From Rhodobacteraceae bacterium HLUCCA08 (lineage in GTDB: Bacteria; Pseudomonadota; Alphaproteobacteria; Rhodobacterales; Rhodobacteraceae): DNA of 64,000 nt. The stretch lies in NCBI GenBank assembly GCA_001314655.1, contig LJSF01000043.1, forward strand, positions 124,001 to 188,000, written 5' to 3'. Shown here in pieces: positions 6,947-9,693 of this stretch. A program made the translations under genes and the position numbers. The notes beneath the pieces are model-generated. The model worked only from the letters and a program-made list of their open reading frames with translations. It was not told the origin of the DNA and searched no databases. Position 1 is the stretch's first letter; every line of letters starts with the position of its first letter.

Positions 6947-8359
6947 ATGTCGTCTGCACACGGACAAAACGCCCTGCAGGGGCTCGAGGCCTATTGTCAC
7001 CACGACCACCATTACCATGACGGCGACCGATTCGGCCGCCTGTTCCCCGACCTCGCGCCGTTGTTCACCGATCCCCGCGCGCTTGAACGGCTCGGCGCGC
7101 ACGGCGGGCCGATGGATGACGGCAATGCCAATACGCGGTCCCAGACCGTCGCCGTCGGCCATGTCTTTTTCGGGCAGTTCGTCGATCACGATGTCACGCT
7201 GGACGTGTCGTCCAGCCTCGATGCCGTCAACGACCCGACCGAAACCCGCAATGTCCGCACCCCGACCCTGGACCTTGATTGCATCTATGGCCCGGGCCCC
7301 GAGGCGGCGCCGTACCTGTATCACCAGGGCGGCGATTTCCAGGGCGCCAAGCTGATCACCGGGGCCGATTTCGGCATCGGGCCCCATGCCGCCGATGACC
7401 TGATGCGGATCGGTCAGCTGGCGGTGATCGGCGATGCGCGCAACGACGAAAACCGGGTGATCAGCCAGATCCAGCTGGCGATGATCCGGTTTCACAACAA
7501 GATGTGCGACCAGGTGCGTGCCGATCAGGGCACATCCGGCCATGACCTGTTCGAAGAGGCCCGCCGTCTGACCATGTGGCATTACCAATGGTGCGTGGTG
7601 CACGATTTCCTGGCCCAGATCTGCGGCGAAGGGGCGATCACCCGCATCCTGACCGAGGGGCGCCGTTACTACCGGCCCAAGACGCCGTTCATCCCGGTGG
7701 AATTCTCGGTCGCCGGCTATCGCTTCGGCCATTCCATGGTGCCGATGAAGATCCAGGTCCAGCAGGGCGATCCGGCCTTCGAACTGTTCGGCGCCGTCCT
7801 GGGCCGCGGCTTCGATCCGGTCACCGATCCGCGCGCCGTGGTCGACATGCACGAGCTGTTCGACACCTATGAAGGCCGCAACGTGGCCCGGTCGGGGCGC
7901 GTGGACGGGCTGATGGCCTCGGACCTGTTGCGCCTGCCGGTGCGGGTCGATGCCAACCGGATGTCGCTGGCCACCCGCAACATGGTGCGCGGGCAAAGCT
8001 TCCTGTTGCCCGCGGGGGAAACCGTCGCCCGCAGCATGGGCCGCCCCGAGGCCGAGATCGAGCAGATCTCGGACGCCGCCCGCCTGGCCGAAGCCGGTCT
8101 GGCCGGGGGCACGCCGCTGTGGTTCTACCTGCTGAAAGAGGCCGAACTGATCGGGCGCGAGAACCTGGACGGCACCCGGATGCCGGGCGAGGGGCTGGGC
8201 CCGGTCGGTGCCACCATCGTCGGCGAAACCATCATCGGGTTGATCGAGCTGGACCCGCGGTCCTGGCTCGGCGCCAACCGCAACTGGCGTCCGATGCAGC
8301 GCGACGACCAGCCCGGGGTGGAAATATCGACCGTCGGCCATATGGTCACCTACGGCTGA
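6947..8359 (+). CDS. Animal-type haem peroxidase family protein with His-rich N terminus
   Basis: A 470-residue protein of the peroxidase-cyclooxygenase (animal haem peroxidase) superfamily. The distal block GQFVDHDVT carries the haem-pocket histidine and aspartate. GDARNDENRVISQIQLAMIR and FHNKM match the helix with the catalytic arginine, and YRFGHSMV carries the proximal haem histidine. No signal peptide is visible, so it is probably cytoplasmic or exported without one. The first 25 residues include CHHDHHYHDGD, an unusual histidine-rich patch that could bind metal. The ATG at 6947 is chosen because GGAGGA (6935-6940) precedes it by six bases; an upstream in-frame start at 6890 has no such site. 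Substrate unknown. Confidence 0.85.
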   Translation: MSSAHGQNALQGLEAYCHHDHHYHDGDRFGRLFPDLAPLFTDPRALERLGAHGGPMDDGNANTRSQTVAVGHVFFGQFVDHDVTLDVSSSLDAVNDPTETRNVRTPTLDLDCIYGPGPEAAPYLYHQGGDFQGAKLITGADFGIGPHAADDLMRIGQLAVIGDARNDENRVISQIQLAMIRFHNKMCDQVRADQGTSGHDLFEEARRLTMWHYQWCVVHDFLAQICGEGAITRILTEGRRYYRPKTPFIPVEFSVAGYRFGHSMVPMKIQVQQGDPAFELFGAVLGRGFDPVTDPRAVVDMHELFDTYEGRNVARSGRVDGLMASDLLRLPVRVDANRMSLATRNMVRGQSFLLPAGETVARSMGRPEAEIEQISDAARLAEAGLAGGTPLWFYLLKEAELIGRENLDGTRMPGEGLGPVGATIVGETIIGLIELDPRSWLGANRNWRPMQRDDQPGVEISTVGHMVTYG

Positions 8360-8373
8360 GCGCGCAGCGTTAA

Positions 8374-8389
8374 CCGGGTTGCAACCCGG
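8374..8389. terminator. Perfect palindrome after the peroxidase gene, possible terminator
   Basis: CCGGGTTGCAACCCGG is a 16-base perfect palindrome 15 bases after the stop of the peroxidase gene. It is directly followed by the larger hairpin at 8393-8425. No T-run follows, so termination is uncertain. Confidence 0.35.
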
Positions 8390-8392
8390 CCC

Positions 8393-8425
8393 GGGCGAGG
8401 CTTGCCCGATCAAGGAGCCTCGCCC
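8393..8425 (+). promoter_or_regulatory. Perfect 10-bp hairpin over the ribosome-binding site of the 53-codon gene
   Basis: GGGCGAGGCT (8393-8402) is the exact reverse complement of AGCCTCGCCC (8416-8425), and the start codon begins at 8426. The Shine-Dalgarno AAGGAG (8412-8417) lies at the loop/stem border, its last two bases paired. As RNA this would block ribosome access until opened, by heat, a ligand, a protein or an upstream ribosome. It could alternatively be a terminator that happens to abut the gene. Confidence 0.55.
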
Positions 8426-8587
8426 ATGCACGGAACCGCCACACAAGCCCTGCCCATCGCCGACCCGGTCCAGGCGCGCATCGCCAGGCTCAGCCGGGAA
8501 TTCCTGTCGGCGGATGCCGTGCGGCGCGACGCCATCGGGGCCGAGATTGCGGCGCTGATCGAAGGGCGGGTGACACCGCTGCGCTAA
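8426..8587 (+). CDS. Small hypothetical protein, 53 residues
   Basis: A short, mostly helical protein (MHGTATQALPIADPVQARIA at the start, LIEGRVTPLR at the end) with no signal peptide, cysteines or membrane segment. A good ribosome site (AAGGAG, 8412-8417) sits 8 bases before the ATG at 8426. It follows the peroxidase gene by 66 bases and precedes the exporter gene by 41, all on the plus strand. I do not recognise the family. Coding potential is supported by the ribosome site and alphaproteobacterial-style codon use. Its start is buried in the hairpin at 8393-8425. Confidence 0.6.
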   Translation: MHGTATQALPIADPVQARIARLSREFLSADAVRRDAIGAEIAALIEGRVTPLR

Positions 8588-8628
8588 GCCGCTTTGCCGG
8601 CGGTCGCAAACGTGCCAAAGGGCGGGGC

Positions 8629-9489
8629 ATGCGCCGCTCTGCCGCCACCGCCATCGGATTCACCGCCGTCCTGATGTGGGCGCTTCTGGCGCTGTTCACC
8701 GTGGCCACGGCGCCGGTGCCGCCGTTCCAGTTGAACGCCATGACCTTTGCCCTGGGGGGCGCGCTGGGCCTGGTCTGGGTCGCGGCCAGCGGCAAGATCG
8801 GGCACTTGCGCGGTGTCGGCTGGCGGGTCTATGCCTTCGGCACGGCGGGCCTGTTCGGCTATCACGCCATCTACTTTTCCGCCCTGCGCCTGGCCGCCCC
8901 GGCCGAAGCCAGCCTGATCGCCTATCTCTGGCCGCTGCTGATCGTGCTGTTTTCGGGCCTGTTGCCCGGCGAACGGCTGCGCGCGGGCCATGTGGCGGGG
9001 GCGGTGATCGGCTTTTGCGGGGCCGCGCTGATCGTTCTGGGCGGGGCGCGCGGGGTCGGGTCGAACCCGGCGCTGGGCCTGGCGCTGGCCGGGATCTGCG
9101 CGCTGTTCTGGTCGGGCTATTCGGTGCTGTCGCGCCGCCTCGGCGCGGTGCCCACGGCCAGCGTCGCGGTGTTCTGCATCGTCACCGCGATTCTGTCGAC
9201 CATCGTCCATGGCCTGGTCGAGGACACCGCCTGGCCGCGCGACGGGCTGGGCTGGGCGGCGGTGCTGGGCCTTGGCCTTGGCCCGGTCGGGGCGGCCTTC
9301 TATGCCTGGGATATCGGGGTCAAGCGGGGCGATATCCAGCTGTTGGGGACCGCGGCCTATGCGGCGCCGCTGCTGTCGACGCTGATCCTGGTCGGGTTCG
9401 GGATCGCCGCGCCCGGATGGGCGCTTCTGGGCGCGGCGCTGTTGATCACCGGGGGTGCGCTGGTCGCGGCCCGGGCGTCGCGCCGCTAG
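8629..9489 (+). CDS. EamA-type drug/metabolite exporter, YddG-like
   Basis: A 286-residue inner-membrane protein with about ten hydrophobic helices in two EamA repeats; the second begins near ALGLALAGICALFWSGYSVLS. The block PAEASLIAYLWPLLIVLFS and the overall length resemble the YddG branch, which exports aromatic amino acids, but substrate cannot be deduced. The start is the ATG at 8629. Its TAG stop (9487-9489) overlaps the stop of the opposite-strand microprotein on a shared CTAG, so the two are convergent with no spacer. Confidence 0.85.
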   Translation: MRRSAATAIGFTAVLMWALLALFTVATAPVPPFQLNAMTFALGGALGLVWVAASGKIGHLRGVGWRVYAFGTAGLFGYHAIYFSALRLAAPAEASLIAYLWPLLIVLFSGLLPGERLRAGHVAGAVIGFCGAALIVLGGARGVGSNPALGLALAGICALFWSGYSVLSRRLGAVPTASVAVFCIVTAILSTIVHGLVEDTAWPRDGLGWAAVLGLGLGPVGAAFYAWDIGVKRGDIQLLGTAAYAAPLLSTLILVGFGIAAPGWALLGAALLITGGALVAARASRR

Positions 9490-9584
9490 CGGCGGCGCAG
9501 GATCCGGCGCAGGATCTCGCCGCGGCTGGCATGGGCGGCACGGATCGCGTCACGGGTGCGGGTATCGGCGGTGGCTTCGAACAT
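9486..9584 (-). CDS. Divergent microprotein, 32 residues
   Basis: A very short basic protein: it starts MFEATADTRTRDAIRAAHAS and ends RGEILRRILRRR. It is predicted to be one amphipathic helix with an Arg-rich tail. The start at 9584 is chosen because the reverse strand reads GGAG, six bases, ATG; an in-frame ATG at 9596 has no ribosome site. It is divergent from a LysR gene across a comparatively AT-rich 109-base gap. LysR proteins often control a divergent neighbour, so this may be a regulated microprotein. Alternatively the ORF is chance. I do not recognise it firmly. Confidence 0.45.
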   Translation of the reverse strand: MFEATADTRTRDAIRAAHASRGEILRRILRRR

Positions 9585-9622
9585 CGGGGGCTCCATCGGG
9601 CAGGATTTACTTGACTGCCATC

Positions 9623-9651
9623 TATATGAGCCCTTGTGTTGACTGTGACAA
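9623..9651 (-). promoter_or_regulatory. Candidate promoter for the microprotein, within the LysR divergent gap
   Basis: On the minus strand, TTGTCA (9651-9646) and CATATA (9628-9623) are spaced by 17 bases, in the most AT-rich stretch nearby (9606-9690). The same interval reads TTGACT on the plus strand (9639-9644), a possible -35 for the LysR gene, without a clear -10. An autoregulatory LysR operator would be expected here. Confidence 0.3.
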
Positions 9652-9693
9652 ACGAGGTTATCTGGCTCTATAGACAAGCAAAACTTAACTGAA

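Follow-up and report, generated by a model that had tools for sequence, protein, structure and literature searches.

The window, a stretch of 64,000 nucleotides from Rhodobacteraceae bacterium HLUCCA08, carries in succession a thiolase gene, a phbB-like reductase gene, an animal-type haem peroxidase gene (6947–8359, plus strand; Pfam An_peroxidase, E = 1.2e-22), directly behind it a small gene for 53 amino acids, hereafter orf53 (8426–8587, plus strand), and then yddG, a small ORF on the minus strand and lysR. A hairpin covers the start of orf53. Its 5' arm GGGCGAGGCT (8393–8402, plus strand) and 3' arm AGCCTCGCCC (8416–8425, plus strand) form an exact inverted repeat around a loop of 13 nt, and the 5' arm is part of the MFE structure. 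The 3' arm holds the last two bases of the Shine-Dalgarno (SD) sequence AAGGAG (8412–8417, plus strand), which is mostly paired in the model, and abuts the ATG at 8426. Between the peroxidase gene and the hairpin lies a perfect 16-nt palindrome, CCGGGTTGCAACCCGG (8374–8389, plus strand). The arms, the SD, the ATG, the palindrome and the upstream peroxidase were all confirmed as given in the initial annotation, and its proposal that the structure hides the ribosome site agrees with a predicted fold covering the SD-to-ATG zone. The palindrome is probably incidental; the window contains 11 palindromes of at least 14 nt, this one included, and no counterpart was seen by eye in relatives. Farther downstream, yddG (8629–9489; aromatic amino acid exporter YddG, NCBIfam 6e-123) stands between orf53 and lysR, and the small minus-strand ORF (9486–9677), with the core TRTRDAIRAAHASRGE, between yddG and lysR.

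The small gene and its neighbourhood

Judged by its homologues, this ORF of 53 codons is a genuine gene. Eight homologous loci were found, the window counted among them. A single-sequence tblastn search with the window protein recovered L020, L021, L025, L027, L041 and L057 at E values of 9e-8 to 2e-14; the copy in L026 was missed at 1e-3 and was recognised by eye behind its peroxidase. A profile built from six sequences matched L041 (1.3e-9) and L057 (2.8e-20), both of them outside the profile. Family-wide, this approach found orf53 in 5/394 genomes at E ≤ 1.3e-9, four of which are rows of the profile itself, the exception being G384. At E ≤ 0.01 matches were obtained in 20/394 genomes, and the 15 weaker ones (8e-5 to 0.0095) were set aside; three of these, L042–L044, had translations judged unrelated by eye. 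A second family search gave 5/393, apparently the same genomes again since the places on the contigs were the same, and added nothing. In the genus of L020, orf53 occurred in 2 of 84 genomes, both already-found Roseovarius loci. The counts by genus were 2/2 for G176, 1/3 for G406, 1/1 for G188 and 1/1 for G384, and a search with the single orf53 sequence found nothing in the remaining three genomes of the window's genus. Six of the eight loci lie in the window's own genome or its family, and the other two are Roseovarius. At the DNA level, a search of 101 genomes returned, the window itself aside, nothing beyond short partial matches (22 to 56 bases).

An alignment of seven rows contains ten invariant residues, and AlphaFold predicts a two-helix hairpin for the window protein (helices 14–28 and 31–46, mean pLDDT 82.4). 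This protein had no match in Pfam, NCBIfam or PHROGs, and among seven homologues a single one gave a weak Pfam match (E = 0.15). A sequence search of the PDB returned one match at E = 0.58, and a fold search ten matches at E 4.2–9.5, none meaningful. Among the titles and abstract openings of the literature, no paper on orf53 or its hairpin stood out. The hairpin draws attention to a small protein family, as yet undescribed, in which a leader covering the start recurs.

In six of the eight loci orf53 lies directly behind the same haem peroxidase. The gene order of the window, minus yddG, is found in L020, L021 and L025, and the peroxidase-orf53 pair is present in L026 and L027. The two other loci, L041 and L057, display phbB, orf53, the opposite-strand small ORF and lysR, without a peroxidase match, and having no peroxidase between phbB and orf53 suggests that the peroxidase was gained or lost as a unit. 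Peroxidase matches at E ≤ 1e-50 were obtained in 14/394 genomes, G384 (the genome of L041) not among them; for L057 (genome G436) the absence refers to the locus itself. The small minus-strand ORF has matches in the equivalent position in L020, L021, L025, L041 and L057; L041 has the start of a yddG on the far side of lysR, truncated where the locus ends. Two further loci, L022 and L023, contain the peroxidase with no orf53 match in the locus DNA examined. More distant peroxidases (L028–L037) share 31.6–37.3% identity, and no orf53 was seen by eye downstream of those in L028–L031. On plasmids, relatives of the peroxidase with less than 60% identity appear in 18 records.

Recurrence of a hairpin at the start of orf53

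As a bare inverted repeat in a GC-rich window the hairpin is unremarkable. The window contains 6 such repeats (perfect arms of at least 10, loop of 3–20 nt) against an expected 4.35, the mean of 20 dinucleotide shuffles, and a 101-nt fold around the hairpin reached z = -1.50, with 19 of 200 shuffles equally good. The hairpin is notable because of its position at the start, not because of the repeat itself. In sets of 2000 shuffles, a stem ending at the orf53 ATG had p = 0.0035 and the MFE of -40..+3 had p = 0.009. Moreover, the window has 124 SD-ATG pairs with the frame open for 40 codons, and the start at 8426 is the only one that displays a stem longer than 7 bp.

The hairpin recurs, with different complementary arms, at the SD and ATG of all six peroxidase-linked leaders, clearly in five and marginally in L026, and is missing from the two unlinked copies, a contrast of 6 versus 2 loci that are partly related. 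Stem sequences vary (GGGCGAGGCT, TGGGCCTCTT, ATACCGGGGCC and GTGCCAC), with changes on both sides between lineages. In L020 and L021, TGGGCC(C)TCTT forms a helix with AAGGGGCCCA that extends to the ATG, and there is a small upper stem CCTG/CAGG. The stem of L025 is formed by ATACCGGGGCC with GGCCCCGGTAT, and that of L027 by GTGCCAC with GTGGCAC. In L026 a longer-range imperfect helix surrounds GCCTCTT/AAGAGGC, and the stem search found a best stem of 4 bp only. The shuffle p values for the MFE of -40..+3 were 0.001 (L020), 0.0135 (L021), 0.001 (L025), 0.068 (L026) and 0.0065 (L027), as against 0.40 in L041 and 0.49 in L057, which have no hairpin at the start of orf53. Combined by Fisher's method over seven lineages, the two without a hairpin included, the values gave 6.5e-7 when Roseovarius was represented by L020 and 5.0e-6 when it was represented by L021. 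None of 22 control gene starts from the same loci, one of them misplaced (the L027 peroxidase, codon CCG), had p below 0.02.

Each pair position from -1 to -9 has changed on both sides between lineages, in a table that leaves L026 outside. However, this table should be read with some caution, since the arms were picked as complementary; it is not an independent test of covariation, and shows that the stems differ. With that reservation, the comparison of orthologous gaps proposed in the initial annotation came out in favor of the hairpin, which recurs with arms that have changed and are still complementary. The same pairing written in different letters makes the hairpin probably a real brake on orf53 translation. 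The hairpins of different lineages may have arisen separately. Between the two Roseovarius loci the hairpin is the most conserved part (31/35 identical positions), compared with 30/48 in the gap before it, 124/168 in the ORF and 1098/1401 in the peroxidase.

Predicted burial of the ribosome site and signals in the leader

The fold models give a graded forecast of how strongly the start would be blocked. In the window, positions -14..-1 have a predicted unpaired fraction of 0.16, below all 21 control gene starts (0.20–0.81; the 22 above minus the misplaced one), and 3 of 77 SD-ATG pairs in the window are as low as 8426. The SD hexamer itself (AGGAGC, 8413–8418) is not exceptional at 0.21, with 4/21 controls equal or lower. 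The same region is 0.09 unpaired in L020 and 0.11 in L021, both below all 21 controls, and 0.29 in L025, lower than 20 of the 21, with the SD core of L025 at 0.66 in a bulge. L026 (0.50, 12/21 controls as low) and L027 (0.43, 5/21) fall within the controls.

The cost of opening the ribosome site was modelled for -16..+13, with the RNA 5' end at -60 unless stated. It is 22.7 kcal/mol in L020, 23.2 in L021 and 20.3 in L025, exceeding all 22 controls (4.1–16.9 kcal/mol, median 9.3). In the window it is 12.0 kcal/mol from -60 and 13.6 from -150, with 4/22 controls as high, and about equal to the costs in the hairpin-less L057 (12.7) and L041 (12.2). L026 requires 15.6 kcal/mol; L027 requires 8.5 from -60, yet 15.9 from -40. 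These opening costs predict a strong block in Roseovarius and L025, but make one doubtful in the window itself. Moving the 5' end to -28 brings the cost to 14.1 kcal/mol in L020, 15.0 in L021, 8.9 in L025 and 7.9 in the window. In L020 and L021 the cut RNA still costs more to open than 21 of the 22 controls, and RNA from a promoter of orf53's own would consequently not be clearly free there.

A TTAAC box resembling a CtrA half-site lies at 8370–8374 on the plus strand, -56 from the ATG, and is one of four TTAAC on the plus strand of the window. The box stands at -53 to -56 in five of the eight leaders (window, L020, L021, L025 and L057). By eye it is followed, in L020, L021, L025 and L057, by N9 and CTACAG, CTATGC, CTATAC or GTATGC, with an incomplete second half-site before it, similar to the CtrA consensus. 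That consensus is TTAA-N7-TTAAC (PMC4046655), and in activated promoters the CtrA site is described as close to the -35 region (PMC6180460). Since L057 keeps the box without a peroxidase, it points to a promoter belonging to orf53. In the window there is no -10-like hexamer at the expected place after TTAAC, and a consensus promoter scan of seven leaders (all but L041) returned no promoter. No terminator was found in window positions 8300–8450, and no T-run follows the stem. In L027 a terminator-like hairpin lies after the peroxidase, between its stop and the stem. A terminator-like hairpin with a T-rich tail was also observed within the orf53 leader of L026 (1394–1408, minus strand).

Read-through silencing and its alternatives

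It is likely that orf53 carries a conserved hairpin that hinders its translation. Burial of the region from the SD to the ATG would block or throttle translation in cis. The fuller reading that we favor, and hold tentatively, is that of an mRNA hairpin kept by selection, throttling orf53 in cis and most plausibly silencing read-through RNA from the peroxidase gene. Such RNA would contain both arms and fold shut, leaving orf53 silenced. Transcription from a promoter of orf53's own would begin within or close to the 5' arm, so that the RNA would be without all or part of that arm, more open and better translated. We infer the repression, the orf53 promoter with its start, and the read-through from the peroxidase. 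By eye, promoter-like signals seem to fit this model in Roseovarius and L025, and seem not to do so in the window. Taken alone, read-through silencing as the purpose of the hairpin is possible, and we would not put it higher than that. A still more specific version is unlikely as a whole: a chromosomal silencer resembling that of T4 lysozyme, its hairpin maintained with a different sequence in each lineage while linked to the peroxidase and missing when unlinked, with the CtrA-like box driving the gene's own promoter. Under the read-through model, whether a small gene requires an RNA guard should depend on transcription of the gene next to it; if this holds, upstream read-through would be a selective force shaping translation starts on bacterial chromosomes.

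A competing reading, also quite possible, places the whole hairpin in the main orf53 mRNA, where it would throttle translation constantly or serve as a switch that a protein, a small RNA or another trigger opens. The recurrence in relatives agrees with it, as does the high opening cost in L020 and L021 after the cut at -28, and in the window, where no -10 overlaps the 5' arm, a longer leader is equally likely. On the other hand, neither loop nor arms share a sequence between lineages by eye, no relevant Rfam family was matched, and the two homologues without the peroxidase are without the hairpin. The ligand- or protein-opened switch raised in the initial annotation found no positive support: Rfam returned for 8200–8800 four matches only, all far below gathering scores, and no loop sequence common to the lineages was seen by eye. 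A riboswitch was rejected for want of an Rfam match at gathering level and because the arms vary between lineages. Opening by upstream translation, also suggested there, looks unlikely, as 33 nt separate the peroxidase stop from the stem in the window, and in L027 the distance is about 150 nt, with the terminator-like hairpin in the interval.

Chance pairing in GC-rich DNA would explain why inverted repeats are common in the window, why the 101-nt fold is only modestly stable and why the opening cost in the window is ordinary. We consider it improbable, however, because four more lineages have a hairpin at this position (marginally so in L026) and the combined p is very low with both failures included. 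It is less probable still that the dyad acts as DNA, as an operator or terminator; palindromic DNA just 3' of the promoter-like TTAAC box and the terminator-like match in the L026 leader would fit such an element, but the arms vary between lineages, unlike a protein site, and in the window the stem is without a T-run or terminator match. RNA thermometers such as fourU and ROSE pair the SD beside the start codon, as this hairpin does, but a thermosensor, the first mechanism offered in the initial annotation, is the least credible reading of all, since in all six hairpin-bearing leaders the predicted unpaired fraction of the SD zone scarcely changes between 15 and 75 C (0.26 to 0.36 in the window), the stem is too stable in prediction, and no thermometer family was matched in Rfam over 8200–8800.

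Start-covering helices have precedents. In phage T4, leader helices bury the SD and/or ATG of gene e (lysozyme), soc, 49 and I-TevI (PMC3014915); longer upstream transcripts of gene e are silenced, and its late promoters, which lie close before the ribosome site, yield translated RNA that is missing the 5' portion of the helix. The read-through model for orf53 takes gene e as its pattern. The predicted helix of orf53 likewise buries the SD and ATG. Unlike gene e, orf53 is a bacterial small gene behind a peroxidase, known here from its sequence, and no promoter is visible in the window. The ISPpu9 transposase offers a second parallel, as its 5'-UTR secondary structure hides the ribosome binding site (RBS) and an antisense RNA is proposed as the opener (PMC8450116); the RBS of orf53 is similarly hidden by a predicted 5' structure, with no antisense RNA known at this locus. 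In conclusion, orf53, an undescribed small gene, probably bears a functional hairpin of a known, start-covering kind.
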